From contig NZ_JAAALN010000007.1 in the NCBI RefSeq assembly GCF_009906795.1, forward strand, positions 1 to 38,422: DNA of 38,422 nucleotides, read 5' to 3'. The DNA is from Kineococcus siccus. Lineage in GTDB: Bacteria; Actinomycetota; Actinomycetes; Actinomycetales; Kineococcaceae. Of the stretch, positions 15-13,387 are shown piece after piece. A model generated the notes under the pieces. That model saw only the letters and a list, made by a program, of their open reading frames with translations. It ran no database searches and was not told the origin of the DNA. Numbering within the stretch: position 1 is the stretch's first letter; every line of letters begins with the position of its first letter. The translations under genes were made by a program, and so were the position numbers.

Positions 15-842
15 TCAGCCGTAGAGGGCGGCGTAGTTCTCGCGCAGGAACATCCGCGCCAGCTCGCCGTCGCCGGCCGCGGCGCGCAGCCGGGCCAGCT
101 CGCCCACGTGGTCGCCCCACGGCTCGTCGCTGGCGAACAGGACGCGGTCGGCGCCGGTGCCGCGGCGCTGGATCTCGGCCACCAGCCAGCGCGGGGCGAA
201 GCCGAGGGCCCAGCTGGTGTCGGTGTAGACCTTCTTGCCGGCCTCGACCCAGTCGAAGAACCGGCCGCCGATCAGCTTGATGTGGGCGCTCATCCCGCCG
301 CCGAGGTGGACGAGGTGGATGCGGACGTCGTCGCCGTAGCGGTCGACGAGCGTGCCGACGGCGTCGATGTCCGAGGCCGCGCCCGGGGAGGTGTGCACGT
401 GCACGACGAGGTCGTGCGCGGCCGCCGCGGCGAAGATCGCCTCGATCTGCGGCTGCGACGTCGGGTCGTCCACGCCGCCGCCCAGCAGGAAGCTCGTCTT
501 CAGCGCCACGACACCGCGCTCGCCGGCGAGGGCGAGGGCCTCGCCCGTCAGCTCGGCGTCCTCGGCGCGCGGGGACGTCCACAGCCCGCAGCGGATCCGG
601 TCGTCGCGGTCGGCCGCGTCCAGGACGAGGTGGTTGAGGGCGAACGAGGCCGCCGCGACGGGGACCCCGTAGTTGGGCAGGACGAGCGCCCGCTCGGTGC
701 CCTCCCGGTCCAGGTCGGCCAGCAGCTCGTCGACGCTCGCGCGGGCCGTCGTGGCGGGCGACACGGCCGGGCCCCCGTAGAACGGGTGCGCCGGGAGGGT
801 CCCGAGGTGGCGGTGCGCGTCGAACACGCGCGCGGCGAGCAT
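15..842 (-). CDS. Amidohydrolase-2 family metal-dependent hydrolase
   Basis: 275-residue TIM-barrel hydrolase of the amidohydrolase-2 type (uracil/ACMSD-like decarboxylases and lactonases). The N-terminal metal motif is DAHRH (residues 8-12). A central HVHTSP segment, an HLVHLGGG strand and a late FASDEPWG motif supply the expected further metal and acid residues. Length fits the family. The substrate cannot be read from sequence. The ATG at 842 has no Shine-Dalgarno, but TGTACT lies six bases upstream, with TTGACC (875-880, read on the minus strand) 20 bases further up, suggesting a leaderless transcript. It is the last gene of a minus-strand series and probably acts in the cytosol. Family placement is fairly sure, function is not. 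Confidence 0.8.
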   Translation of the reverse strand: MLAARVFDAHRHLGTLPAHPFYGGPAVSPATTARASVDELLADLDREGTERALVLPNYGVPVAAASFALNHLVLDAADRDDRIRCGLWTSPRAEDAELTGEALALAGERGVVALKTSFLLGGGVDDPTSQPQIEAIFAAAAAHDLVVHVHTSPGAASDIDAVGTLVDRYGDDVRIHLVHLGGGMSAHIKLIGGRFFDWVEAGKKVYTDTSWALGFAPRWLVAEIQRRGTGADRVLFASDEPWGDHVGELARLRAAAGDGELARMFLRENYAALYG

Positions 843-932
843 GCGAGGAGTACACGCCCGCGGTGTTTCGCACCGGTCAACTCCGGAACACGGGTGTGTT
901 TCCGGCGGCTCCGGACGGGGCCGGACGAGGCC

Positions 933-2180
933 TCAGGCCGGGGGGAGCGGGTGGGGTGCGGTGTCCGGCGAGGCGTCGGGCGAGGGGACGCGGCGGCGGC
1001 GGCCCGCCGGACGCTCCTCGACCTCGGGCAGCTCCGCCGCCCCGGGCACCAGCACCATCCGGACGTAGCGCAGCACGACCGCGACGATGGCGGCCAGCGG
1101 CACCGCGAGGAACGCCCCGGTGATGCCGAACAGCGTGCCCCCCACCGTCACCGAGCCGATGACGACGACGGGGTGCAGGGCCAGCGACCGCCCCACCAGC
1201 AGGGGCTGCAGGACGTTGCCCTCCAGCTGCTGCACGATCAGGACGATGCCCAGCACGACGAGCGCCTGCACCCAGCCCAGGGCGACCAGCGCCACGAGGA
1301 CGGCCAGGGCGCCGCTCGCGACGGCGCCCACGATGGGGATGAACGCGGCGAAGAACACCACGACGGCGAGCGGCAGGGCCAGCGGGACGCCGACGATGCG
1401 CAGGCCGATGCCGATGAACACCGCGTCGACGAGGGCGACCGCGGCCTGGGACAGGATGAAGCCGCGCAGCGCGGCCCACACGCGCGTGCTGAGCTCGCTC
1501 ACGTGGCGGTGCGAGCGCTCGTCGAGCCAGCGCCGCGACCACGGCAGCAGCCGGTCGCCGTCGGAGAGGCAGAAGAAGGTCAGCACGAGGACGAGCAGGG
1601 CGGTGACGACGCCGGACCCGACGCTGCCGACACCGCTGACGATCCCGCCCGCGATGCCCTGCGCGTTGGCCTGCAGCTCGGTCGTCACCTGGTCGACGAC
1701 GGTGTCGATCTGGGTGTCGCCGAGGTTCAGCGGCGGTCCGGTGACGTAGGTCTGCACCTCCGTCAGGCCCGCGGTCGCCGAGTCGGTGATCTCCTGCACC
1801 TGCCCCGCGACGTTCGGCACGAGCGCCGCGAAGACCCCGACGACGGCGACGACGAGCAGCAGGAGCGTCACGAGGGCGGCCAGCGCGCGGGGCAGGACGG
1901 CCCGCAGGACGTGGGTCAGCGGCCACAGCACCGCGCTCAGCAGGACCGCCAGCAGCAGGGGCAGCAGCAGCGACCAGCCCTTGCCCAGCAGCCACAGCAG
2001 CCCGGACACGCCCAGGCCCAGGACGAGCAGCCGCAGCGTCCACCGCGACGCCTCGGTGACGCCGCGCTCGAGGGCCCCGCCCGGACGGCGGCTGCGGCCC
2101 CCCGTCGCCGCCCGGTGCGACGGGGCGGTCGGCGGGGACGGGACGGCGTCGCGGGGCGCGGGAGGGGTGGTGTCGCTCAC
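933..2180 (-). CDS. AI-2E family transporter (PerM/YdiK-type membrane protein)
   Basis: 415 residues with about eight hydrophobic helices between residues 50 and 385, flanked by Pro/Arg-rich cytosolic tails. The pattern of helix pairs near the N-terminus, a long polar stretch (about 120-215) and four closely spaced C-terminal helices is that of the AI-2E/PerM superfamily, exporters or antiporters of varied substrates. The motif PIVGAVASG around residue 285 is typical. The family name comes from the E. coli autoinducer exporter. Nothing here indicates quorum sensing, and other members are Na+/H+ antiporters. The GTG at 2180 has GACGAT six bases upstream, so it may be leaderless. It follows the MBL gene by 36 bases on the same strand and could also be cotranscribed with it. 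Confidence 0.88.
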   Translation of the reverse strand: MSDTTPPAPRDAVPSPPTAPSHRAATGGRSRRPGGALERGVTEASRWTLRLLVLGLGVSGLLWLLGKGWSLLLPLLLAVLLSAVLWPLTHVLRAVLPRALAALVTLLLLVVAVVGVFAALVPNVAGQVQEITDSATAGLTEVQTYVTGPPLNLGDTQIDTVVDQVTTELQANAQGIAGGIVSGVGSVGSGVVTALLVLVLTFFCLSDGDRLLPWSRRWLDERSHRHVSELSTRVWAALRGFILSQAAVALVDAVFIGIGLRIVGVPLALPLAVVVFFAAFIPIVGAVASGALAVLVALVALGWVQALVVLGIVLIVQQLEGNVLQPLLVGRSLALHPVVVIGSVTVGGTLFGITGAFLAVPLAAIVAVVLRYVRMVLVPGAAELPEVEERPAGRRRRVPSPDASPDTAPHPLPPA

Positions 2181-2216
2181 CCCGTGATCGTCCCAGCCCC
2201 GCGCCCCCCGGGGGGC

Positions 2217-2858
2217 TCAGTGGCCCCGGTCGACCCACTCCTGCAGGTGCGGGGCCTCGTCGCCGACCGTGGTGTCGCCGCCGTGGCCCGTGTGCACCCG
2301 CGTCTCGGGAGGCAGCTCCAGCAGCACGTCGCGGAGGGAGGCGACGATGGTGCCGAAGTCGGAGAAGGACCGCCCGGTCGCGCCCGGCCCGCCGGCGAAG
2401 AGGGTGTCGCCGGTGAAGACGGTGGCCAGCGTCGGCGCGTACAGGCAGACCGACCCGGGCGTGTGGCCGGGGGTGTGCAGCACGTGCAGCTCGGTGCCCG
2501 CGACCGTCACGACCTCGCCGTGCGTCAGGTCCGTCGTCGCGACGCCCGGGTTGGTCAGCTCCCAGACCTCGCGGTCGGCGGGGTGCAGCAGCACCGGCAC
2601 GGTCCGCTCCGGCGTGGAGAACCGCTGCGCCAGCGCGGGTGCCTGCCGGACGTGGTCGTCGTGGGCGTGGGTGGCCACGACGGCCAGCAGGGTCCGGTCG
2701 CCGACCGCGGCCGCGATCGCGTCGACGTCGTGGGGCGCGTCGAGGACGACGCACTCGCGGTCGTCGCCCACGATCCACACGTTGTTGTCGACGTCGAAGG
2801 TCTGCCCGTCGAGGCTGAAGGTGCCGGACGTGACGAGGTGCTCGACGCGGGCGCTCAC
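2217..2858 (-). CDS. MBL-fold metallo-hydrolase paired with mycothiol-dependent formaldehyde dehydrogenase
   Basis: 213-residue metallo-beta-lactamase-fold hydrolase of the glyoxalase II type. Visible zinc motifs are THAHDDH (about residues 55-61), [16 protein letters not shown] and a terminal HTGHGGD. The GTG start at 2858 overlaps the stop of the dehydrogenase gene by four bases (GTGA), which implies translational coupling. In mycobacteria the mycothiol-dependent dehydrogenase also has an MBL-fold neighbour. The likely role is hydrolysis of S-formylmycothiol, the dehydrogenase product, to formate and free mycothiol; this is inference from context, not from catalytic residues. It acts in the cytosol. 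Confidence 0.85.
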
Positions 2859-3949
2859 AGGACCACCACCGAGCGCAGGACGGAACCGGCCTTCATGGTG
2901 GCGAACGCCTCCTCCACGTCGCCCAGCCCGATGCGCTCGGAGACGAAGGCGTCCAGCGGCAGCCGCCCGGCCGCGTGCAGCTCGAGCAGCTGCGGGAAGT
3001 CGCGCTCGGGCAGGCAGTCGCCGTACCAGGACGACTTCAGGGCCCCGCCGCGGCCGAACACGTCCAGCAGCGGCAGCTCCAGCGTCATCTCGGGCGTCGG
3101 GACGCCGACCAGGACGACGGTGCCCGCGAGGTCGCGCGCGTAGAACGCCTGCCGCCACGTCTCGGGGCGCCCGACCGCGTCGATCACGACGTCGGCGCCG
3201 AAGGAGTCGGTGAGCCCCTGCACGGCCGAGACGACGCCCGCCTCGTCGAGCCCGCGGGAGTTCACGGTGTGGGTGGCGCCCAGCTGCTTCGCCCACGCGA
3301 GCTTGCGGTCGTCGAGGTCGACGGCGATGACCCGTCGCGCCCCGGCGAGGACCGCCCCGGCGACCGCTGCGCAGCCCACGCCGCCGCAGCCGATGACGGC
3401 GACCGTGTCCCCGCGCTGCACGGGGGCCGTGTTGACGGCCGCGCCGAGGCCGGCCATGACGCCGCAGCCCAGCAGGCCCGCGACGGCGGGGTCGATGCCG
3501 GCGTCGACCTTCGTGGCCTGCCCGGCGGCCACGAGGGTCTTGGGGGTGAAGGCGCCGATGCCGAGGGCCGCCGACAGCGGGGTCCCGTCGGTCAGCGTCA
3601 TGGGCTGCGAGGCGTTGTGGGTGGCGAAGCAGTACTGCGGGCGCCCGCGCTTGCAGGCCCGGCACTGCCCGCACACGGCCCGCCAGTTCAGGACGACGGT
3701 GTCGCCGACCGCGACGTTCGTGACGCCCTCGCCGGTCGCGGCGACCGTGCCGGCGGCCTCGTGGCCGAGCAGGAACGGGTACTCGTCGTTGATCCCGCCC
3801 TCGCGGTAGTGCAGGTCGGTGTGGCAGACGCCGCACGCGGCGACGTCGACGACGACCTCACCGGCGAGGGGTTCCGGGACGACGACGTCCACGGTCTCGA
3901 CGGGGGCGCCCTTGGTGCGCGAGATCACTCCGGGAACGGTCCAGGCCAT
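2855..3949 (-). CDS. mscR: S-(hydroxymethyl)mycothiol dehydrogenase (formaldehyde detoxification)
   Basis: 364-residue zinc-dependent class III-like alcohol dehydrogenase. It oxidises the formaldehyde-mycothiol adduct with NAD+ to S-formylmycothiol. Visible features: catalytic zinc site ACGVCHTD (about residues 33-40) and GHEAAG; structural zinc cysteines in [15 protein letters not shown] (about 93-107); Rossmann motif GCGGVG near residue 189. The sequence from [18 protein letters not shown] onward and the length match the mycothiol-specific branch rather than general ADHs. TAGGGT (3956-3961, minus strand) stands six bases before the ATG with no room for a Shine-Dalgarno, so the transcript is probably leaderless. 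Its stop overlaps the start of the MBL hydrolase. The gene implies that the host makes mycothiol. Confidence 0.9.
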
Positions 3950-3955
3950 GGCCGG

Positions 3956-3961
3956 ACCCTA
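3956..3961 (-). promoter_or_regulatory. Leaderless -10 element of the mscR-MBL operon
   Basis: TAGGGT on the minus strand, six bases before the ATG at 3949. This fits the actinobacterial TANNNT -10 box of leaderless genes. No Shine-Dalgarno fits in the gap. Confidence 0.6.
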
Positions 3962-4024
3962 GTGGCCTCCTCGGACGCGCGGGGGCCGGCGGCCGGCGCG
4001 ACGAGGGGGCGCCCGATCCGCCGG

Positions 4025-4030
4025 TAGCCT
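4025..4030 (+). promoter_or_regulatory. Leaderless -10 element of cysS-rlmB
   Basis: TAGCCT, seven bases before the GTG at 4038, with no Shine-Dalgarno between. It is back to back with the mscR promoter in the 88-base divergent gap, which also holds a GGCCGGCGGCCGGC GC-rich stretch. Confidence 0.55.
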
Positions 4031-4037
4031 TGAGGCC

Positions 4038-5456
4038 GTGAGCCTGCGCCTGTACGACAGCGCCGCCGGCACCGTGCGCGACTTCGTGCCCCTCGTCGAG
4101 GGCCGCGTCGGCATGTACGTCTGCGGCGCGACCCCCCAGGGGTCGCCCCACCTCGGCCACGTCCGGTCGCAGGTGGCCTTCGACGTGCTCCGGCGCTGGC
4201 TGACCGTGCGCGGCTACGCGGTGACGTCGGTGCGCAACGTCACCGACATCGACGACAAGATCCTCGCGAAGGCCGCCGAGGCGGGCGAGGAGTGGTGGGC
4301 GCTCGCCCACCGCCACGAGCGCGAGTTCTCCGCGGCCTACGACGCGCTCGGCGTGCTGCCCGCGACGATCGAGCCGCGGGCCACGGGCCACGTCCCCGAG
4401 ATGGTCGAGCTGATCGAGCGGCTGATCGCGACCGGGCACGCGTACGCGGCCGCCGACGCCTCGGGCGACGTCTACTTCGACGTGCGCTCCTGGCCCGCCT
4501 ACGGCGAGCTGACCCGCCAGCGCCTCGCCGACATGGAGCCCGCGTCCGACGCCGACCCCCGCGGCAAGCGCGACCCGCGCGACTTCGCCCTGTGGAAGGG
4601 CGCGAAGCCGGGGGAGCCCGCGACGGCGTCGTGGGCGACGCCGTGGGGCCGCGGCCGCCCGGGCTGGCACCTGGAGTGCTCCGCGATGGCGGGGCGCTAC
4701 CTGGGCGCGGAGTTCGACGTCCACGGCGGCGGGCTGGACCTGCGGTTCCCGCACCACGAGAACGAGCAGGCGCAGTCGCGCGCCGCGGGCGACCGCTTCG
4801 CGCGGTACTGGATGCACAACCACTTCGTGACGATGGCCGGCGAGAAGATGAGCAAGTCGCTCGGCAACGTCCTGGGGGTGCCGCACCTGCTCGGGCAGGG
4901 GCACCGCGCCGTCGTCCTGCGCTACTACCTCGTCGCGGGGCACTACCGCTCGCACCTGGAGTACTCCGAGACCTCGCTCGTGGAGGCCGAGGCCGCCTAC
5001 GCGCGGCTCGAGGGGTTCCTGCGGCGGGCGGCGGAGCGCCTCGGCGGGGACGTCCCCGCCGTCGACGTGGCGCCGGAGTTCGCGGCGGCGATGGACGACG
5101 ACCTCGCGACGCCGGCGGCGCTCGCGACCCTGCACGAGGCCGCCCGGGCCGGCAACCAGGCGCTCGCGGCCGGGGACGCCGGGGCCCTGGCCACCGCCGC
5201 CGGGCAGGTGCGCGCCGGGCTGAGCGTGCTGGGCCTGGACCCGGCCAGCGAGCCGTGGGCCTCGGCCGGCGGCTCCGACCACGCGCGCGCGGCACTCGAC
5301 GTGCTCGTGCGCGCGCGTCTGGAGGACCGTGCGACCGCCCGCGCCGCACGGGACTTCGCCACCGCGGACGCGGTGCGCGACAGCTTGGAGGACGCGGGCA
5401 TCGTGATCGAGGACACGCCCACCGGAGCCCGGTGGTCGCTGGAGGGCGAGCAGTAG
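4038..5456 (+). CDS. cysS: Cysteine--tRNA ligase
   Basis: 472-residue class I aminoacyl-tRNA synthetase charging tRNA-Cys. The HIGH-type motif is SPHLGHVRS (about residues 36-44), preceded by MYVCGAT carrying a zinc-ligand Cys. WHLECSAM and HHENEQ supply the remaining zinc ligands. KMSKS lies in [11 protein letters not shown] (about 270). The C-terminal DALR-like helical domain is present. The KMSKS-containing catalytic core, C-terminal helical domain and 472-residue length argue for CysS rather than the related mycothiol ligase MshC. The GTG at 4038 is supported by the TAGCCT box seven bases upstream. Its TAG stop shares one base with the rlmB GTG start, so the two are coupled. Confidence 0.96.
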
Positions 5457-6442
5457 TGGCAGGCAACAGTCAGCGTCGCGGCGCGGTGCGAGGGTCCAAG
5501 AAGGGCCCCTCCGTCGGGACCGGCGGCAAGAACCGCCGGTCGCTCGAGGGCAAGGGGCCGACCCCCAAGGCCACCGAGCGGCCGTACCACCCCGCGGCCA
5601 AGCAGGCGGCGAAGGCCGCGCACCGCGCGGCCACGTCGAACCGCGCCCCGGCCGGGGGCGGGCCGAACCGGCAGCCGCGCGGCCGCACGGGCGGCAAGAA
5701 GCAGGCCGAGACGGAGTGGATCGCGGGCCGGAACTCCATCGTCGAGGCGCTGCGCTCCGACCTGCCCATCACGGGCATCTACGTGGCCAGCCGCATCGAG
5801 TCCGACGACCGCGTCAAGGAGATCCTCAAGGCCGCGGGCGACCGCAGCATCCCGCTGCTGGAGGCCTCGCGCGCCGACCTCGACCGGTTCACCGAGGGCG
5901 CCGTGCACCAGGGCGTCGCGGCCACCGTGCCGCCGTACGAGTACCTGCACCCCGAGGACCTGCTGGACCGCGCCGCCGCCGTCGGCCACCCGCCGCTGCT
6001 CGTGGCGCTCGACGGCGTCACCGACCCCCGCAACCTCGGCGCCGTGGTGCGCTCGGTCGCGGCGTTCGGCGGTCACGGCGTCGTCGTGCCCGAGCGGCGC
6101 GCGGCCGGCATGACCGCCTCGGCGTGGAAGACGTCGGCCGGGGCGGCCGCGCGGATCCCCGTCGCCCGCGCCACCAACCTCACGCGGGCGCTGCAGGAGT
6201 ACCAGCAGGCCGGGCTGTTCGTCGTGGGCCTCGACGCGGGCGGTGACGTCGAGCTGCCGGACCTGCGCCTGGCCGACGGCCCGATCGTCGTCGTGGTCGG
6301 CGCCGAGGGTGCGGGCCTGTCGCGGCTCGTGCGCGAGACGTGCGACCAGGTCGTCAGCATCCCGATGGCCGGTCGCTTCGAGTCGCTCAACGCGGGCGTC
6401 GCGGCGGGGATCGCGCTGTACGAGGTCGCCCGGCACCGCTGA
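5456..6442 (+). CDS. rlmB: 23S rRNA (guanosine-2'-O-)-methyltransferase RlmB
   Basis: 328-residue SpoU/TrmH-family methyltransferase, which in E. coli modifies G2251 of 23S rRNA. Residues 1-85 form a Lys/Arg/Gly-rich basic extension typical of actinobacterial members. Residues about 86-160 (from [14 protein letters not shown]) are the SpoU substrate-binding domain. The C-terminal SPOUT knot carries [25 protein letters not shown] and [14 protein letters not shown], the three SpoU motifs. The GTG at 5456 overlaps the cysS stop by one base (TAGTG). The cysS-rlmB pairing is common in actinobacteria. The gene ends just before a strong hairpin. Confidence 0.94.
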
Positions 6443-6450
6443 CGCGGGGT

Positions 6451-6477
6451 CGCCCCCGGGACGTGCTCCCGGGGGCG
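6451..6477. terminator. Bidirectional hairpin between convergent rlmB and ABC permease genes
   Basis: Perfect inverted repeat with 11-base arms, CGCCCCCGGGA and TCCCGGGGGCG, around a five-base loop (CGTGC). It lies nine bases after the rlmB stop and eleven before the end of the convergent permease gene. There is no U-tract, as is usual in GC-rich actinobacteria. Confidence 0.75.
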
Positions 6478-6487
6478 GACGCGTTCG

Positions 6488-7345
6488 TCACGAGGGGCGG
6501 GGCCGACGGTAGGAGCGGCGCGTCCACGCCCAGCCGAGGACGGTCAGGGCGACGCACCAGCCGACGGCCGTCCACGTCGTGGTCGCGTCGAGCGGGGTGC
6601 CCCCCAGCAGGCCCCGCACGGTCTCGATCACCGGCGTGAACGGCTGGTGCTCGGCGAAGAGCCGGACCGCGGTGGGCATGGTGTCGACGGGCACGAACCC
6701 GCTGCCCAGGAACGGCAGCAGCAGCAGGACCATCGGGGTGTTCGAGGCCGACTCCACCGACCGGGCCGCCACGCCCATCGCCACGGCCAGCCAGGTCAGC
6801 ACGACCGCGAACAGGGTGAAGAAGCCGGCGAGGCCGAGCCAGCCGGCTCCGCCCGCGCCGGGCCGGAACCCCAGCAGGACGGCGACGCCGAGCACGGCCG
6901 CGGCGGCCACGAGCGTCTGCAGGACGGCCCCGACGACGGAACCGCCGAGCACCGCGACGGGGGCGACGGGCGTGGTGCGCAGCCGCGTGACGATCCCGCC
7001 CGTCATGTCCATGGCCACGCCGATCGCGGTGGCCTGCGCGATGCTCGACGCGGTCATGACGAGGACGGCGGGCGCGATGTAGTCGAGGTAGGCGGCGCGC
7101 CCCGCGGCCCCGGGGGCGGTGCCCGCGGCGACGCCCGCGCCGAAGGCCCCGCCGAACACGTAGACGAAGAGCAGCAGCAGCACGACGGGCATGAGCACGA
7201 TCAGGACGGTCAGCGACGGGTAGCGGACCATCCGCAGCAGGCTGCGCCGCGTCATGGTGGCGAGGTCGCGCGCGGCGCGCGGCAGGCCGGCGCGCGCGGT
7301 GCGGTGCGGGGCGGCGGGGTGCGGTGCGGCGGCGACGGTGCTCAT
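6488..7345 (-). CDS. ABC-2 type transporter permease (DrrB-like)
   Basis: 285 residues with six predicted membrane helices: about 48-75, 95-125, 130-155, 160-190, 195-215 and 255-275. The start is the ATG at 7345: a strong GGAGGAGG lies upstream and the codon overlaps the stop of the ATPase gene (ATGA). The cytosolic N-terminus is followed by TMTRRSLLRMVRYPSL, the usual lead-in to helix 1 in daunorubicin-resistance-type exporters. It is the membrane half of the pump powered by the ATPase encoded just upstream. The substrate is unknown; antibiotics or lipids are possible for this class. Confidence 0.88.
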   Translation of the reverse strand: MSTVAAAPHPAAPHRTARAGLPRAARDLATMTRRSLLRMVRYPSLTVLIVLMPVVLLLLFVYVFGGAFGAGVAAGTAPGAAGRAAYLDYIAPAVLVMTASSIAQATAIGVAMDMTGGIVTRLRTTPVAPVAVLGGSVVGAVLQTLVAAAAVLGVAVLLGFRPGAGGAGWLGLAGFFTLFAVVLTWLAVAMGVAARSVESASNTPMVLLLLPFLGSGFVPVDTMPTAVRLFAEHQPFTPVIETVRGLLGGTPLDATTTWTAVGWCVALTVLGWAWTRRSYRRPRPS

Positions 7346-8112
7346 CGGGCCACCTCCTCCTGGGTCCGGTCCTGCGTGGGTGCGGTGAGGGCGAGGAAGA
7401 CGTCGTCGAGGGAGCCGGCGTCGTGGGCGGCCTTGAGGCCGGCCGGGGTGTCGTGCGCGACGAGGCGGCCGCCGTGCAGGACGGCGACGGCGTCGGCCAG
7501 CTGGTCGGCCTCGTCGAGGTACTGCGTGGTGAGCAGCACGCTGGTGCCGCCGGCGACCAGGCCGCGCACCTGCTCCCACAGGTCGCGGCGGGCGCGGGGG
7601 TCGAGGCCGGTCGTGGGTTCGTCGAGGAACACGACCTGCGGGCCGGGGACGAGCGTCATGGCCAGGTCGAGCTTGCGCCGCATGCCCCCGGACAGCTGCT
7701 GGCCCTGCTTGCGGGCGGCGTCGCCGAGGCCGAACCGCTCGACCAGCTCCGCGGTGCGGGCGCGACCCTCGCTGCGGGGCAGGTGGAACAGGTCGGCCAC
7801 CAGGCGCAGGTTCTCGGCGACGGTGAGCAGCGGGTCGACGGCGGAGAGCTGGCCCGTCACGCCGATGAGGTGGCGGACGGCCTGCGGGGCGCGGGCGACG
7901 TCGTGGCCCAGGACGCGGGCGGTGCCGGCGTCGGCGGGCAGCAGCGTCGAGAGGATCGAGACGACGGTGGTCTTGCCCGCCCCGTTGGGGCCGAGCAGCG
8001 CGGTGACCGTCCCGGCGGGGACCGTGAGGTCCACCCCGTCGAGCACGGTCTGGGCGCCGTAGCGCTTGGTGAGTCCGGCGATCTCGATCGCCGGGGTCGC
8101 TGAGGTGGGCAC
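7342..8112 (-). CDS. ABC transporter ATP-binding protein (DrrA-like)
   Basis: 256-residue ATPase. Walker A is GPNGAGKTT (about residues 38-46), the signature is LSGGMRRKLDLAM, Walker B is VVFLDEPTTGLDP, and the switch is LLTTQYLDEADQLAD. This is the DrrA/daunorubicin-resistance class. The GTG at 8112 is chosen because GAGGAGC lies 6-10 bases upstream and IEIAGLTKRYG begins shortly after; a longer reading frame upstream lacks homology-like sequence. It is cotranscribed with the permease (four-base overlap) and, across a 49-base gap holding a hairpin, probably with the EXLDI gene. Confidence 0.92.
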   Translation of the reverse strand: MPTSATPAIEIAGLTKRYGAQTVLDGVDLTVPAGTVTALLGPNGAGKTTVVSILSTLLPADAGTARVLGHDVARAPQAVRHLIGVTGQLSAVDPLLTVAENLRLVADLFHLPRSEGRARTAELVERFGLGDAARKQGQQLSGGMRRKLDLAMTLVPGPQVVFLDEPTTGLDPRARRDLWEQVRGLVAGGTSVLLTTQYLDEADQLADAVAVLHGGRLVAHDTPAGLKAAHDAGSLDDVFLALTAPTQDRTQEEVAR

Positions 8113-8139
8113 GACTGCTCCTCGTGGCTGGGCCGGGTT

Positions 8140-8160
8140 CCTCCCGGCGGCGCCGGGAGG
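8140..8160 (-). terminator. Intercistronic hairpin after the EXLDI gene
   Basis: CCTCCCGGCG and CGCCGGGAGG form a 10-base inverted repeat around one central base (in practice an 8-bp stem with a 5-nt loop). It starts right after the EXLDI stop and ends 28 bases before the ATPase start. It could be an attenuator or mRNA-processing stem setting the ratio of EXLDI to the pump, or a full terminator. Confidence 0.5.
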
Positions 8161-8161
8161 G

Positions 8162-8677
8162 TCAGATGTCGAGGTCCTCGACCTCGGGTTCGCCGGCGTG
8201 GACCTCCACCAGCGCAGCGAGTTCGGCCGGGACGGCGGCACGCAGGTCCGCCAGGCCGTCGAAGACCAGGAGGACGTTCGTCGCGGGCGTCTCGCCCCAC
8301 TGCTGGTCGGCGCTGACGTACTTGCGCCAGCCCGTGAGCCGGCCGTCCCTGCCGGCGGTGTGCACGAAACCCCCGGGCCGCGCGACGTGCACGGCGAAGC
8401 GGCCGCTGCGGGTGCGGTAGACGCGGTAGTGCTCCTCGTCCCCGCCGGCGACGCGGTGCCAGTCGATCAGCAGCACGCCCTGGAACCGCTGCTTCCTGGC
8501 GCCCGCACCCACGCGGACGGTGATCTCCTCGTAGCCATCGGCGCGGCCCTCCTCGACCTCGACGAGCCGGTGGACGGCCTTGGAGATGGCGGCCGACAGG
8601 TTCCCTCCCGTGAGGTCCTGCGCGCGCTGGAACACGGGGAGGTCGCTGTCGGAGACGTAGATCGTCTTGTTCGGCAC
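8162..8677 (-). CDS. EXLDI-type protein preceding a DrrAB-like exporter
   Basis: 171-residue soluble protein ending in EVEDLDI, the C-terminal signature that gives the EXLDI family its name, as I recall it. The start is taken as the GTG at 8677 (PNKTIYVSDSDLPVFQRAQ), where the conserved-looking sequence begins. The frame stays open further up, but that extension runs through the promoter. Residues 1-50 resemble a short ribbon-helix or helical DNA-binding-like segment (LSAAISKAVHRLVEVEEG); the rest is mixed alpha/beta with no recognised catalytic motif. Such proteins sit beside DrrA-type ATPases, as here. A regulatory or sensing role for the pump is inference only. Confidence 0.75.
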   Translation of the reverse strand: MPNKTIYVSDSDLPVFQRAQDLTGGNLSAAISKAVHRLVEVEEGRADGYEEITVRVGAGARKQRFQGVLLIDWHRVAGGDEEHYRVYRTRSGRFAVHVARPGGFVHTAGRDGRLTGWRKYVSADQQWGETPATNVLLVFDGLADLRAAVPAELAALVEVHAGEPEVEDLDI

Positions 8678-8700
8678 GCTCTCATCGTAGCGATGGAACC

Positions 8701-8728
8701 AGTATACGCATACGTCTACGTACATCAA
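8701..8728 (-). promoter_or_regulatory. EXLDI-ABC operon promoter with embedded palindromic operator
   Basis: On the minus strand TTGATG (8723-8728) and TATACT (8701-8706) are separated by 16 bases, an unusually AT-rich promoter for this genome. The spacer contains TACGT-AG-ACGTA, a perfect 12-base palindrome (8711-8722), followed by further TACG steps at about six-base spacing. The position between -35 and -10 suits a repressor of TetR or PadR size. No such regulator is encoded next to it. Confidence 0.65.
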
Positions 8729-8762
8729 GGGTTCTGCCCAGCGGGATGCCGGATCAGCCTGC

Positions 8763-9320
8763 GTGACCGGGGCCGACGTCGTCGCCTGCGACCTCGCCCC
8801 GGAGCTGTTCGCCGACGGGCGCCGCCGCGACGCCGACGCCGGGGTGGACGTCACCTGGGTCGAGGCGGACGCCGAGGACCTGCCGTTCGGCGACGGCGAG
8901 CCCGACGCGGTGATCTCCTGCGTCGGGGTGGTGTTCGCCCCGCACCACGCGGCGGCCGCCGCGGAACTCCTGCGCGTCTGCCGGCCCGGCGGGACCCTCG
9001 CCCTGCTGAGCTGGACGCCGGCGGGTCTCGTCGGGCAGCTCTTCGCGACGATGGGGCCCTACGCGCCGCCGCCGCCCGCCGGGGCGCAGCCGCCGCCGCG
9101 GTGGGGCGAGGAGGCCCACGTGCGCGGGCTGCCCGGGGACGGGGCGGAGGTGCTGACGGCCGAGCGTCGCACGCTGCACGTCGAGCACCCCGGTCGCGTC
9201 GCGGCCCTGGGCGCCGCCCTCGACGACCTCGCCGCCCGGTGCACCGGGGAGGACGGGGCGATGGAGCGGGAGTACCTGCTCCTGACGGCCCGCCGCCGCG
9301 GGGCGCCCGCCACCTCTTGA
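8763..9320 (+). pseudogene. Remnant of a class I SAM-dependent methyltransferase
   Basis: The frame reads like the C-terminal two thirds of a Methyltransf_11/25-type enzyme: ADVVACDLAPELF, WVEADAEDLPFGDGEPD, VFAPHHAAAAAELLRVCRPGG and LLSWTPAGLVGQLF are in family order. The N-terminal SAM-binding loop (LDVGCGTG-type) is missing, and no upstream in-frame sequence supplies it. After RRTLHVEH the usual 50-60 residue helical segment is also absent, and the text jumps to ALDDLAARCTGEDGAMEREYLL. Two deletions make a working enzyme unlikely. The GTG at 8763 is merely the first possible start. Loss of the 5' end lies right at the EXLDI promoter region, so the missing piece may have taken a neighbouring gene with it. 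Confidence 0.7.
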
Positions 9321-9346
9321 CCTGAGACCGTCCGGGCACACAACGT
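9317..9346 (+). promoter_or_regulatory. Promoter of the Mau-like operon
   Basis: TTGACC (9317-9322), an 18-base spacer, then CAACGT (9341-9346), which ends six bases before the GTG at 9353. This fits a leaderless actinobacterial promoter; the -10 is a weak match (A2 and T6 only). Confidence 0.5.
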
Positions 9347-9352
9347 GGTCAC

Positions 9353-9874
9353 GTGAACACCACGGTGGTGCCCTACCTGGCGGGTTCCCTGCTGCTGCTC
9401 CTGGCCGGGGTCGCCAAGCTCCGCCGGCCGCTGGGGACCCGGCAGGCCCTGCGCACGCAGGGCCTGCCGTCGGCAGCCTGGCTCGTGCGCTCGCTCGGGG
9501 CGGTCGAGGTCCTGCTCGCGGTCGCCGCCTTTGCGCAGGTGCCCGGCGCTGCGGCCGGTGTCGCGCTGGCCTACCTCGGGTTCAGCGGGTTCGTCGTGCT
9601 GGCGCTCGTGCGCAAGCGCCCGCTCAGCTCCTGCGGCTGCTTCGCGGGCCCCGACGTCCCGCCGACCCCGGGCCACGTCGTCGTGACGGCGCTCGCCGCG
9701 GCCGCCGCGACCCTCGTCGCGCTCGGGCGCCCCGCGGGCGTCCCGGCCCTGCTGGACGCCGGCCCGGCCACGGCGCTCGCCGTCACCGGCTCCGCCGTCC
9801 TCGTGGCCTGGCTCGCGCTGCTGCTGATGACGCGGCTGCCGGAGCTCGTGGCCCTGCGGGGGGCGGCCGCGTGA
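9353..9874 (+). CDS. MauE/DoxX-family redox-associated membrane protein
   Basis: 173 residues with four membrane helices (about 5-22, 45-65, 72-92 and 105-160 as a pair) in the MauE/DoxX arrangement. A cytosol- or periplasm-facing CGCF motif (about residues 93-96) sits in the loop after helix 3, as expected for a quinone- or thiol-redox protein. In Paracoccus, MauE together with MauD is needed to form the disulfides of the methylamine dehydrogenase light chain. The gene opens the operon, and its stop overlaps the start of the MauD-like gene by four bases (GTGA). It probably passes electrons between the membrane and the thioredoxin-like partner; the direction and quinone link are inference. 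Confidence 0.85.
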   Translation: MNTTVVPYLAGSLLLLLAGVAKLRRPLGTRQALRTQGLPSAAWLVRSLGAVEVLLAVAAFAQVPGAAAGVALAYLGFSGFVVLALVRKRPLSSCGCFAGPDVPPTPGHVVVTALAAAAATLVALGRPAGVPALLDAGPATALAVTGSAVLVAWLALLLMTRLPELVALRGAAA

Positions 9875-10725
9875 CCGCGCTCGTCGTGGGCCTGACCGTG
9901 GCCGTCGCCCTGCTGGGCGTGGTCGTCGCGGGCCTGCTGCGCAGCCACGCCGAGATCCTGCGCGCGCTGCACGAGCTGGGCGCGGGGCGCGAGGACACCG
10001 CGCCCGGCAGCGCCGGGGGGCCCGTGGACCTGCCGTTCGAGGTCGGCCGCGGGGTGCTGTCCGCGGCCGGCGGCGGGGCCGGGGTGACGGGCAGCGCCGC
10101 CCCGGACGTCGTGGGCGCCACGCCCGCGGGCGACACCGTGCAGGTCAGCGTGACCGCCGGCGGCGGCGCGACCCTCGTCGCGTTCCTGTCCAGCGGCTGC
10201 CTGACCTGCCACGGGTTCTGGGAGCGCTTCGCCGCCTCCGCCCCGGGGTTGCCGCCGGCCACCCGCCTCGTCGTCGTGACGCAGGGGCCCGAGCGGGAGA
10301 GCGCCGGCGCGGTGCAGCGGCTCGCGGGGCCCGACCTGCTCGTGGTCATGTCGACCGCGACCTGGGAGGCCTACGAGGTGCCGGGCTCGCCGTACTTCGT
10401 CCTCGTCGACGCCGCGACGGGCCGCGTCGCGGGCGAGGGCAGCGCGACGGGCTGGGACCAGGTGCAGCGCCTCGTGGGGGAGGCGGCCGGCGACCTGGCG
10501 CTCGCGCGCAGCGCCGGTGCGCACCACGACCACTCCCACCGCCGGGACGCGGGCGACGGACCGCACCGCGAGGCGCGCGCCGACCGCGAGCTGCTGGCGG
10601 CCGGCATCGCCCCGGGCCACCCGAGCCTGCAGCTGACCGCCGACGAGGTCGTCGACCTCGACCGCGCAGACGAGGCCTCCCAGCCCGGCGGCCACGCCGG
10701 TGCGGGCGCGCCGGGCCGGGACTGA
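9871..10725 (+). CDS. MauD-like membrane-anchored thioredoxin-fold protein with His-rich tail
   Basis: 284 residues. One N-terminal membrane helix (about 2-23), a linker, then a thioredoxin-like domain (about 70-215) with the active-site motif SGCLTCHGFW (CxxC near residues 110-113) and a probable cis-Pro in VPGSPYFVLVD. This is the MauD layout: an anchored thiol oxidoreductase outside the membrane. The C-terminal 75 residues are an unusual extension starting with HHDHSHRRD and rich in charged residues, which could bind metal. The GTG at 9871 is set by the four-base overlap with the MauE-like gene. Its context predicts oxidation or isomerisation of the cysteines of the Tat-exported protein at the operon end. 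Confidence 0.82.
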   Translation: MTALVVGLTVAVALLGVVVAGLLRSHAEILRALHELGAGREDTAPGSAGGPVDLPFEVGRGVLSAAGGGAGVTGSAAPDVVGATPAGDTVQVSVTAGGGATLVAFLSSGCLTCHGFWERFAASAPGLPPATRLVVVTQGPERESAGAVQRLAGPDLLVVMSTATWEAYEVPGSPYFVLVDAATGRVAGEGSATGWDQVQRLVGEAAGDLALARSAGAHHDHSHRRDAGDGPHREARADRELLAAGIAPGHPSLQLTADEVVDLDRADEASQPGGHAGAGAPGRD

Positions 10726-10729
10726 GCGC

Positions 10730-10810
10730 GTGAGCCTCGCGGCGTGGGCGCTCCTCGCGGGCGTGCCCACCGCCGTCGTCGCGGCGCTGCGTTCGATGTG
10801 GTCGCCTTGA
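10730..10810 (+). CDS. Possible 26-residue membrane micropeptide
   Basis: A short GTG-started frame begins four bases after the MauD-like stop and ends nine bases before the next gene. It encodes 26 residues: MSLAAWALLAGVPTAVVAAL, then a short RSMWSP tail, a plausible single membrane helix. Its placement in an otherwise overlapping operon, filling the only sizeable gap, favours a real gene. The upstream GGGCCGGGACTGAGC gives only a weak Shine-Dalgarno. It could equally be non-coding spacer. Confidence 0.35.
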   Translation: MSLAAWALLAGVPTAVVAALRSMWSP

Positions 10811-10819
10811 GGCGAGTCG

Positions 10820-11428
10820 ATGCTCTCGAGCATCACCCCGCTCGGTGAGCGGGGCCGCGCCAGCCGGTGGCCCGTCACGGTCGCCTTCCACCTCCTCGGG
10901 TCGGCCGCCGCCGGCGCCGCGCTCGGTGCAGCCCTCGGCCTCGCCGGCGCGCTGCTGCCCCTCGAGCGCGACGTCCCCGCGGCCGTCGCCCTGGTGCTCC
11001 TCGCGGGCTTCTGCGCCGCGGCCGTGGCCGTCGAGACCGGCCGCCTCCCCGCGCTGCCCACCTGGCACCGCCAGGTCGACGAGGACTGGCTGCACCGCTA
11101 CCGCGGCTGGGTCTACGGCCTCGGCTACGGGGCCCAGCTGGGGGTCGGTGTCGTCACGATCGTCACGTCGCCGCTGCTCTACGCCGCCCTGGCGCTGGCG
11201 CTGCTGACGGGCGGCCCCGCGGCCGGCGCCGCCGTCGGGTTCGCGTTCGGCCTCGCGCGGGCCGCGCCCGTGCTGGCCACCCGCACCGTCACCACGGCCG
11301 CCCGCCTCGGCGCGGCGCACCGGCGGCTGGAGCGCCTGGCGCCGGCCGGACGGACCGCGGCCGCCACCACCGCCGCGCTCCTGGTGCTCGCGTGCGCCGC
11401 GCAGCTCGTCCTCGGGGCGCCCGCGTGA
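10820..11428 (+). CDS. Uncharacterised multi-pass membrane protein of the Mau-like operon
   Basis: 202 residues with about five to six hydrophobic helices: 18-45, 53-70, 100-125, 128-150 and 180-200. A polar loop LPTWHRQVDEDWLHRYRGW (about residues 77-95) carries two His and three Trp. The segment VYGLGYGAQLGVGVVTIVTS resembles membrane helices of CcdA/DsbD-like or related redox carriers, but there are no cysteines in the helices, so I do not assign a family. ATG at 10820 follows TGAGGCGAG. The stop overlaps the start of the next micro-ORF by four bases. Likely an accessory of the MauE/MauD-like relay or of export. Confidence 0.78.
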   Translation: MLSSITPLGERGRASRWPVTVAFHLLGSAAAGAALGAALGLAGALLPLERDVPAAVALVLLAGFCAAAVAVETGRLPALPTWHRQVDEDWLHRYRGWVYGLGYGAQLGVGVVTIVTSPLLYAALALALLTGGPAAGAAVGFAFGLARAAPVLATRTVTTAARLGAAHRRLERLAPAGRTAAATTAALLVLACAAQLVLGAPA

Positions 11429-11493
11429 GGAACGAGGAGACGGCGACGACCACCGACGCGACCACGACGACAGGAGGCTGCTCGTGCTGCTGA
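11425..11493 (+). CDS. Possible 22-residue Thr-rich peptide ending GGCSCC
   Basis: The GTG at 11425 overlaps the previous stop (GTGA). The frame runs 22 codons through a Thr-rich stretch (ATTTDATTTT) to a C-terminal GGCSCC and stop. It overlaps the start of the next gene by ten bases. The end of this frame also encodes that gene's ribosome site (AGGAGG at 11472-11477), so the Cys-rich tail could be a by-product of the ribosome site followed by GTGCTGCTG. The frame may act as a coupling leader, a true small peptide, or nothing. Confidence 0.35.
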   Translation: MRNEETATTTDATTTTGGCSCC

Positions 11494-11951
11494 GCGCACA
11501 CGGGATGGGGCTCGACGCCCCACCCGGCTGGGAGGTCCGCATCTCTCGGCGGACGGCCGCGGGCCAGGAGGGGGACTCGCGCACCCGGCCCGTGCTGCAC
11601 GCCGCGACCGTCGCGCTGCCCGTGGTGCGCGGCGACTTCGGCGGCGGCGTCACCGGGCTGCTCTCGGCGACGGACCTGTTCGTGTCGCTGTTCGAGCAGG
11701 GGCCCGACGCCGTGGGCACCGCGCTGTTCTCCGACCGCGGCCGTCCCCGTCCCGTGGCGGCGGACTTCTCGCCGAACCGTCTGCAGCGCACCATCGCGGG
11801 CCAGTCCGGCGGCCAGTGGTTCTTCACCGAGGCCGGACGGGCCTTCAGCCTCTACGTCGTCCTCGGCAGCCACGCCCGGCGCGTGGAGCTCGTGAACCGA
11901 CTGACGGGCGTCCTGTCGACGCTCGACCTCACTCCGGGAGACGCCTCGTGA
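11484..11951 (+). CDS. Uncharacterised small soluble protein upstream of the MauA-like gene
   Basis: 155 residues with no signal peptide, membrane helix or cysteine. The GTG at 11484 is chosen for the perfect AGGAGG six bases upstream; an ATG at 11505 (MGLDAPPGWEVRI) is the alternative. Recognisable blocks are LDAPPGWEVRISR, PVLHAATVALPVVRGDFG and a C-terminal WFFTEAGRAFSLYVVLGSHA that looks conserved and structured (strand-helix). I do not recognise a named family. Its stop overlaps the start of the Tat-exported Cys-rich protein by four bases (GTGA), so the two are produced in step. A cytosolic chaperone or assembly factor for that precursor is a reasonable guess. Confidence 0.75.
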   Translation: MLLSAHGMGLDAPPGWEVRISRRTAAGQEGDSRTRPVLHAATVALPVVRGDFGGGVTGLLSATDLFVSLFEQGPDAVGTALFSDRGRPRPVAADFSPNRLQRTIAGQSGGQWFFTEAGRAFSLYVVLGSHARRVELVNRLTGVLSTLDLTPGDAS

Positions 11952-13387
11952 GCACACCGCTGGTCGACCGCCTCGCCGGCCTGCTCGCCACCCGCACGGG
12001 CCGCCGGGGGTTCCTCGCGCGCACGGCCGTCGTGGGTTCGGCGCTGACCGTCGGGCCCGTGAGCTTCCTGACCCGCCCGGGCACGGCCTACGCCGCGGTG
12101 TGCGGCATCGACTCGACCTGCTCGTCGGGGTACACGGTGTTCTGCGCCACCATCAGCGGCGGCGTGAACCGCTGCCCGCCCGGCAGTCTCGTCGGCGGCT
12201 GGTGGAAGTCGGAGGGGTCCGGGTTCTGCTGCGGCGGCGCGCGCTACTACGTCGACTGCCACAGCTACTGCTCGTGCGGCTGCAGCGGACGCAGCACCTT
12301 CTGCGGCGAGGGCTGCCGCGCCTGCTCGTGCGGGTGCGGACCCGCGGGGCAGTGCGACCAGCGCAAGGTGTGCTGCAACGAGTTCCGCTACGGCCAGTGC
12401 CGCCAGGACGTCCGGTGCACGGGGCCCGTGTGGTGCCGCGTCGTCACGTGCACGCCGCCGTGGCGGATCCCGGCCTGGGACTGCTCGACGACGAGCGCGA
12501 CCGACCAGCGCACGGGGTCGCACGGGGCGCCGTCCCTGCAGGACTGCACGGCCATCGGCAGCCGCTACACCGCGCTCGGCGGGCAGGGCGGGGTGCTGGG
12601 CGAGGCGCGCACGCCGGAGCTCGCCACGCCCGCGGGTGACGGCGCCTACCAGCACTTCGACGCCGGGTCGGTCTACGTCTCCAACCGCACGGGCGCGCAC
12701 GAGGTCCACGGCGCGATCCGCGAGGCGTTCGCGCGCAGCGGCTGGGAGGCCGGGCCGCTGGGCTACCCCCTCACCGACGAGACGCCCACCCCCGACGGGC
12801 GCGGGCGGTTCAACCACTTCGAGCGGGGGTCCGTCTACTGGACCGCCGCGACGGGGGCGCACGAGGTGCACGGCGCGATCCGCGAGCGGTGGCGGGCGCT
12901 GGGCTGGGAGCGCGGCCCGCTGGGCTACCCCGTCACCGACGAGAGCACGACGCCCGACGGGCGCGGCCGCTACAACCACTTCGAGGGCGGCGACCCCTCC
13001 GGTGACGGGTCCGCGTCGGTGTACTGGACCGCGGCCACGGGCGCGCAGGCGGTGCTGGGCGACGTCCGCGAGGTGTGGGCCGCCTCGGGCTGGGAGACCG
13101 GTCCGCTCGGGTACCCGGTCACGGGCGAGGTCCGCACCCCGGACGGGCGGGGCCGGTTCACCCACTTCGAGCGCGGATCCGTCTACGCCTCGGCCACCAC
13201 GGCCGCCACGCCGGTCCTCTCGCCCGTGCGCGAGGCGTGGGCGGCGGCGGGCTGGGAGACGGGCCCGCTCGGCTACCCCGTGGCGCCCGCCCGGCCCGCG
13301 GGCCCCGACGAGGTCCGGCAGGAGTTCCAGCGCGGGTCCGCGCGGCTCACCGTGAGCACCGGGGCGGTCGTGCTCGTCCCGGCCTGA
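11948..13387 (+). CDS. Tat-exported Cys-rich MauA (methylamine dehydrogenase light chain)-like protein with five LGFP repeats
   Basis: 479 residues. The Tat signal has GRRGFLART (about residues 18-26), a hydrophobic stretch and cleavage near TAYA-AVCG (about 52). Residues 53-210 hold 24 cysteines. Light-chain-like landmarks: a CPPG block, followed 9-10 residues later by a WW pair (candidate for the first TTQ tryptophan); a VCCN segment; and a PVWC block (second Trp, followed by Cys as in MauA). MauA normally has an Asp just before its CC pair; here Val is found, so TTQ formation is doubtful. Residues about 215-479 are five LGFP-type repeats (LGGQGGVLGE, then four GWExGPLGYP units), which bind actinobacterial cell wall. 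GTG at 11948 overlaps the preceding stop. No heavy chain or MauG is nearby. Confidence 0.75.
   Translation: MSTPLVDRLAGLLATRTGRRGFLARTAVVGSALTVGPVSFLTRPGTAYAAVCGIDSTCSSGYTVFCATISGGVNRCPPGSLVGGWWKSEGSGFCCGGARYYVDCHSYCSCGCSGRSTFCGEGCRACSCGCGPAGQCDQRKVCCNEFRYGQCRQDVRCTGPVWCRVVTCTPPWRIPAWDCSTTSATDQRTGSHGAPSLQDCTAIGSRYTALGGQGGVLGEARTPELATPAGDGAYQHFDAGSVYVSNRTGAHEVHGAIREAFARSGWEAGPLGYPLTDETPTPDGRGRFNHFERGSVYWTAATGAHEVHGAIRERWRALGWERGPLGYPVTDESTTPDGRGRYNHFEGGDPSGDGSASVYWTAATGAQAVLGDVREVWAASGWETGPLGYPVTGEVRTPDGRGRFTHFERGSVYASATTAATPVLSPVREAWAAAGWETGPLGYPVAPARPAGPDEVRQEFQRGSARLTVSTGAVVLVPA

Follow-up and report, generated by a model that had tools for sequence, protein, structure and literature searches.

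In the mau cluster of Paracoccus denitrificans PD1222 (NC_008688.1), genes for MauF, MauE and MauD accompany those for MauB, amicyanin, MauJ, MauG and the cysteine-rich MauA, which carries a twin-arginine leader. The mau proteins mature methylamine dehydrogenase (van der Palen 1997, as cited in PMC7794033); the portion of PMC7794033 used here, citing the same work, presents MauE as speculated to form the disulphides of the beta-subunit and calls the function of MauD unclear. The same portion describes decRiPPter candidate clusters of Streptomyces for ribosomally synthesised and post-translationally modified peptides (RiPPs), in which a Cys-rich product has MauE and MauD as neighbours but no other mau genes, and it already proposes that the pair was recruited for that product. 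Here we analyse a contig of Kineococcus siccus (NZ_JAAALN010000007.1, assembly GCF_009906795.1, 38,422 nucleotides; hereafter the window), in which an operon at 9353-13387 on the + strand resembles both systems. We consider it highly likely that this operon comprises a MauF-MauE-MauD maturation set, with a predicted selenocysteine (Sec) in MauF, and a likely Cys-rich, wall-anchored substrate, with no recognisable dehydrogenase. Unlike the Paracoccus cluster, it has no MauB, amicyanin, MauJ or MauG; its MauF has a TGA codon where that of Paracoccus has Cys, and its Cys-rich protein, in contrast to MauA, carries wall-binding repeats and belongs to a family that, outside Kineococcus, has no second Trp of the tryptophan tryptophylquinone (TTQ) cofactor. 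From the Streptomyces clusters it differs in possessing MauF, whereas the authors found no other mau orthologues there, and in its product, a wall-anchored protein exported by twin-arginine translocation (Tat) rather than a candidate peptide (PMC7794033). The main features are the following.

9353..9874, + strand: MauE-like membrane protein with a CGCF pair, 173 aa (PF07291, 55.2 bits, cut-off 27).
9871..10725, + strand: MauD-like thioredoxin-type protein with CLTC (profile against MauD, hhalign 98.2%, E 4e-14, a single comparison).
10730..11428, + strand: MauF homologue, probably one gene of 232 aa with TGA read as Sec, predicted at residue 27.
10808..10810, + strand: in-frame TGA, the predicted Sec codon, in the context WSP-U-GESMLSS (TGA in 17/17 aligned loci).
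10836..10854, + strand: hairpin of the bacterial Sec insertion sequence (SECIS) type, with an 8-bp stem and a GGU loop that begins 33 nt past the TGA (-14.8 kcal/mol).
11948..13387, + strand: Tat-exported Cys-rich protein with a MauA-related domain (24 Cys) and five LGFP repeats (PF08310, 294 bits).

The multi-pass membrane protein of the operon had been left unidentified in an earlier, sequence-only reading of the window, which thereby missed that it is MauF and very probably a selenoprotein. When a small protein set was searched, the profile of its family matched the MauF proteins of P. denitrificans (92.5 bits, E 2.4e-29) and Methylobacterium sp. DM1 (89.2 bits, E 2.6e-28). Both proteobacterial proteins have TWSPCGYSS at the place of MWSP-U-GES in the window, with the TGA exactly at the cysteine of WSPCG. 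Judged by its sequence, the membrane protein is MauF. The MauF of P. denitrificans had no Pfam match at E 0.1 and no NCBIfam match at E 1, which may be why the identity stayed invisible to such models, and NCBIfam models matched neither the window MauF nor four other members. A tblastn search of plasmids with the window MauF gave no match, though two MauF genes and a Thermomicrobium roseum gene of the family are present there, so a single-sequence search is too weak here; a Protein Data Bank sequence search with the MauF alignment returned no credible relative (best E 0.038). Elsewhere in this genome a second, weak match to the MauF profile was seen (G000:C399:7229-7576, 20.9 bits), with no internal stop.

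Two open reading frames (ORFs) cover this gene: a micro-ORF at 10730-10810 and the membrane ORF at 10820-11428, which share a frame and are split by the TGA at 10808-10810. When intergenic stretches were read in all frames, the pattern R-x-x-W-S-P, TGA, G-x-S-M/L-L-x-S appeared in all 16 loci read that have the membrane gene. Across 17 aligned loci, the window included, the codon was TGA in every case and TAA or TAG in none, and the flanking residues R-6, W-3, S-2, P-1, G+1, S+3, L+5, S+7, I+8, P+10, G+12 and E+13 were invariant. In the 26 codons upstream of the TGA, four Kineococcus sequences differed 29, 20 and 61 times at codon positions 1, 2 and 3, respectively, so this segment behaves as coding DNA. 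Residue U27 is the sole Cys/Sec column conserved in all 17 MauF rows. Altogether, it is highly probable that the micro-ORF and the membrane ORF form a single MauF gene read through the TGA, a judgement that covers the sequence-based part of our reading as a whole.

The same codon exists in two forms. The MauF profile matched 62 of 396 genomes of the phylum, 49 with one TGA inside the match, nine with none while spanning the codon and four with a match that stops short of it (G267, G189, G287 and G109, left out of the Sec/Cys counts). In all 49 TGA-type genomes the TGA lies within a P-x-G motif, and Cys occupies the codon in eight loci of Actinomycetota and in both proteobacterial MauF genes; the residue of G214 (24 bits) was unread, so the Cys-type denominator is eight. 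SelA, found in 235 of the 396 genomes overall, was present in 47/49 TGA-type and 1/8 Cys-type genomes (Fisher p 1.1e-6) and, within the subfamily of the window MauF, in 26/26 and 0/3, respectively (p 2.7e-4), in cross-tables compiled by hand from profile-match listings and with p values that serve as a guide only, as the genomes are related and independence is overstated. The two TGA-type genomes without SelA are 68% and 73% complete. Among the 63 family rows compared (53 TGA and 10 Cys, both proteobacterial MauF proteins among the latter), the Sec/Cys label needs 3 changes on the tree, of which starred branches force 2; shuffled labels need 9.5. A single starred clade inside the window's subfamily unites its three Cys members, whose genomes all lack a SelA match; one of these three, G382, keeps the same whole operon with a Cys MauF.

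Downstream of the codon we looked for a SECIS-type hairpin. The bacterial model given in the consulted part of PMC13188914 combines a loop of 3-9 nt with a G in its first two positions, a stem of 4-16 bp, a spacing of 16-37 nt and an energy of -7.5 kcal/mol or better, and the window hairpin at 10836-10854 satisfies it. So do 52 of the 56 TGA loci tested, or 46/50 after removal of duplicates (L065, L066, L072, L073, L074, L078); L118, L124 and L127, which the search pattern did not catch, stood outside the test. Synonymous resampling from one pooled codon table, rather than one per genome, gave a mean of 17.0 of the 50 loci (sd 3.1, maximum 26, 200 runs). Of the Cys-type MauF genes 1/10 fit the model, and of the other Cys codons of operon genes 99/644. 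The stems vary on both sides across loci, for example CCCCCGTG/CACGGGGG and CCCCCATG/CATGGGGG. The Cys-type mauF of Methylobacterium sp. DM1 (L110) was seen to carry a GGTC-loop hairpin at a spacing of 29 nt, as in one Sec group; at -6.2 kcal/mol it is too weak for the model.

The genome of K. siccus also holds the machinery that Sec insertion would use. A formate/nitrite transporter gene, selD (called by its AIRS domains and position), the tRNA-Sec gene, selA (304 bits) and selB lie on one contig (L111, G000:C173), with tRNA-Sec (69.5 bits, cut-off 47) adjoining selA, and the formate dehydrogenase FdhA of this genome carries one in-frame TGA. In another genome, G085, under 1 kb separates selA from the gene of the Cys domain. 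Because TGA and Cys exchange at one codon, the TGA form goes with SelA, SECIS-type hairpins follow the codon and the Sec machinery is encoded in the genome, the MauF of this operon is very probably a selenoprotein.

The likely substrate is the protein encoded at 11948..13387. Its N-terminal 200 residues found matches in 16 of 198 genomes of the phylum, this genome included, the four named loci being Kineococcus species with 82-92% identity. The C-terminal parts of eight such proteins comprise LGFP repeats, CWB2 with weaker LGFP, sub-threshold FG-GAP or no Pfam match, which leaves the Cys domain as what they share. Its profile and that of MauA align (hhalign 94.8%) in a stretch of 82 columns running from the Tat leader as far as CPPG...W, and beyond these columns Y..DC and C-x-C elements correspond when the two alignments are read side by side. 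The MauA likeness proposed in the sequence-only reading finds partial support in this distant profile match, but neither the window protein nor any of 20 family members matched PF02975 at E 1, and the second TTQ Trp is absent outside Kineococcus. A PF02975 search of this genome also gave no match, with the control genomes likewise empty, so that it does not by itself show absence. The predicted model of the domain was poor (predicted local distance difference test, pLDDT, 58.3) and a fold search with it gave no information, and a Protein Data Bank sequence search found no credible relative (best E 1.6). In K. rubinsiae (L020, 6001-6822) the Cys-domain gene matches as two pieces in different frames, which looks like a frameshift or an assembly error.

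With 18 to 26 Cys per aligned domain (20 domains) and many CxC and CC motifs, the protein might instead bind metal or clusters, with MauFED keeping the domain reduced for loading rather than forming disulphides. The DsbD_2 family, matched by the window MauF, includes reductant carriers, which would suit such a role. The Tat-type leader and the wall-binding modules, however, place the domain outside the cytoplasm as far as sequence can tell, and the relation to MauA points to disulphides; we regard the metal-binding alternative as unlikely.

Nor does a dehydrogenase partner appear. MauB (PF06433) was found in 0/31 operon-bearing genomes, this one included, and the MauG-type family PF03150 (CCP_MauG) in 1/31, G374, at 23.4 bits (31.6 with neighbours; cut-off 25.6), with none in this genome; as a positive control, the Paracoccus plasmid matched in both searches, and some of the 31 genomes are incomplete drafts. 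Among the five operon proteins scanned, Pfam gave no hit to a cytochrome or cupredoxin family. At the position of the first TTQ Trp of MauA, all 20 aligned domains have Trp, within an invariant GWW, whereas the second position, which lies beyond the hhalign range and was read from the alignment, is Trp in three rows, all from Kineococcus (VWC where MauA has IWC or NWC); the other 17 rows have Val, Ile, Met, His or Gln there. With the second Trp confined to Kineococcus, TTQ is unlikely as the function of the family, though it may occur in Kineococcus. The operon could still encode a genuine TTQ-dependent amine dehydrogenase system in which neither the large subunit nor the TTQ enzyme was recognised, as the invariant first Trp and the VWC of Kineococcus would suggest; set against the second Trp missing from 17 rows, the counts for PF06433 and PF03150 and the lack of cytochrome or cupredoxin matches, we judge this very improbable. 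The absence of MauB and MauG that the sequence-only reading had noted near the operon extends beyond the window as well. The link which that reading drew between an orphan Mau maturation set and a Cys-rich envelope protein also held: of 396 genomes, the 31 with the window's MauF subfamily (at least 133 bits) are exactly those with the Cys-domain protein, a coincidence to be read with the 133-bit line having been set after the list was seen and with each search alignment having drawn in part on hits of the other. Sixteen of these genomes had been found first by the Cys domain and had fed the MauF alignment; the other 15 were new. Recruitment of the Mau pair for a Cys-rich protein that is not a dehydrogenase, as that reading supposed, finds support in respect of the orphan set; the idea itself had already been put forward for the Streptomyces RiPP-like clusters (PMC7794033).

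How the set might work is suggested by its redox residues. CcdA is a two-Cys carrier with an SP-Cys motif near its first helix. The window MauF shares with the CcdA/DsbD transmembrane family (PF13386, PF02683) an SP-Cys-type motif and a DsbD_2 match above cut-off (membrane ORF against PF13386, 32.7 bits, cut-off 24.9; PF02683 below cut-off), but has one conserved redox residue against two in CcdA. Without a second conserved Cys, MauF is unlikely to act alone as a two-Cys carrier of the CcdA type. We propose that its selenol, the only conserved redox residue of MauF, would form a transient selenenylsulphide with MauE (CGC) or MauD (CxxC), that the relay would pass electrons across the membrane, and that MauD would then form or correct disulphides in the exported domain of 18-26 Cys, the protein being held at the envelope by lineage-specific C-terminal modules (LGFP, CWB2, others). 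We give this mechanism about an even chance.

Several points count against our interpretation, besides the caveats stated above for the Fisher p values, the pooled codon table and the co-occurrence. We infer the insertion of Sec from sequence, and likewise we infer the order and direction of the relay. G100 has SelA yet a Cys MauF, the sole Cys-type genome to do so. T. roseum, L076, L080 and L098, four of the 50 TGA loci, do not fit the SECIS model, with three more outside the test, and the minimum-energy fold of the window stretch is no more stable than dinucleotide shuffles (z -0.67). At E 0.001 the tRNA-Sec model matched every one of the 24 genomes and 14 controls, which is why a score needs to be well above the cut-off to be informative; G189, with SelA, has no tRNA-Sec above it, and G134, a Cys-type genome without SelA, scores just above it (best 48.7 bits). 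The MauA relation spans just the 82 columns, partly Tat leader. As to structure, CcdA was the top Foldseek row for the MauF model, though weakly (probability 0.90, E 0.09, template modelling score 0.37), and VIA-align gave middling Z values to transporters, with CcdA absent from the rows listed. That the TGA is an ordinary stop closing a 26-aa leader peptide, the membrane protein restarting at ATG 10820 by translational coupling, fits the position of this ATG 9 bases downstream of the TGA and the public annotation of T. roseum, which begins the gene after its TGA, but is very improbable, given that the two proteobacterial MauF proteins and eight Actinomycetota homologues are continuous with Cys at the codon, that in L031 a CTG (Leu) replaces the ATG, and that SelA correlates and SECIS-type hairpins are enriched.

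A selenoprotein MauF would extend beyond this operon. The megaplasmid of T. roseum (NC_011961.1, L109) likewise encodes MauE, a MauD-like protein and a MauF with an in-frame TGA, annotated as a 'hypothetical protein' from just after the TGA in LWSP-TGA-GYSM and adjoining the MauE and MauD-like genes; unlike the window family, its MauA-like proteins keep both Trp positions, and its MauF misses the SECIS rule. Within 693-9325 of that locus we saw two MauA-like sequences with both Trp positions present (693-1145 and about 5900-6312), propeller-like hypothetical proteins (by eye) and a MauE with a long N-terminal part. Further Sec-type MauF subfamilies (FGPUGLSMVET, LWSPUGLSVTET and others) were noted in L095-L101 and L112-L127. 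In the loci examined, such subfamilies lie beside Tat-type Cys-rich proteins with faint similarity to MauA, mostly in the leader, and the two of these proteins that were scanned had no Pfam match.

As predicted for the window MauF, known prokaryotic selenoproteins have Sec for a redox Cys, a SECIS-type hairpin and a thiol-redox context, according to the part of PMC13188914 used here. Its Table 1 (2026) comprises 119 prokaryotic selenoprotein families, none named MauF or similar, a few entries being unnamed hypothetical proteins; the nearest membrane kinds in it are YeeE/YedE, the SO_0444 transporter and the rhodanese/DsbD fusion TsoB. Full-text searches, with most subscription journals outside their reach, found nothing joining selenoprotein with MauF, nor selenoprotein, cytochrome c biogenesis and SECIS together; among the matches listed for selenoprotein and MauE none was on topic by title, and those for selenoprotein and Kineococcus were unrelated by title. 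We lean, with some reserve, towards MauF being an unrecognised selenoprotein family across Actinomycetota and a Thermomicrobium plasmid, with three or more Sec subfamilies that adjoin different Tat-exported Cys-rich proteins, and towards MauF-MauE-MauD being a general selenium-dependent factory for extracytoplasmic disulphides, of which methylamine dehydrogenase maturation would be the best-known customer. If so, a new family would join the list of selenoproteins, selenium would be placed in extracytoplasmic oxidative folding, and the annotation of such genes as truncated proteins would be explained. We know of no role assigned to MauF, which would gain a single testable catalytic residue; wall-anchored Cys-rich proteins would become a defined client of a defined machine, and the occurrence of one operon with Sec or with Cys offers a natural experiment.

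As to the rest of the locus, the genes for the MauE-like, MauD-like, membrane, small soluble and Tat-exported Cys-rich proteins are co-directional, two of the remaining features being as follows.

11425..11493, + strand: micro-ORF of 22 aa with the C-terminus TTTTGGCSCC, between MauF and the small soluble gene.
11484..11951, + strand: small soluble protein of 155 aa (GWE...GRAFSLYVV).

The compact operon described in the sequence-only reading was confirmed, as were its three four-base GTGA overlaps (at 9871, 11425 and 11948) and, by count, the 24 Cys of the Tat-exported protein; its two micro-ORFs fared differently, the first (10730-10810) being the N-terminus of MauF and the second (11425-11493) staying a separate ORF. 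Of the profile searches it had suggested, those for MauE (PF07291) and MauD found their targets and that for PF02975 did not. The gene-neighbourhood comparison it had also suggested found all five genes, in varying order, in 13 of 19 loci (L017-L035), more than expected by chance; several of the other six end at contig ends, and L022 is without the membrane gene. The CGC[FAW] motif is kept in 20/21 MauE-like homologues read. The MauD-like protein, hydrophobic at its N-terminus by eye, had no match in the Pfam scan of the operon proteins, and its CxxC is present in 24/25 homologues read, the remaining one being a fragment. The 22-aa ORF was dropped as a candidate conserved peptide, a counterpart (ending ATTGGCSCC) having been seen only in K. 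rubinsiae (L020). The small soluble protein matched neither Pfam nor NCBIfam; it has homologues in the operons of most relatives and travels with the operon.

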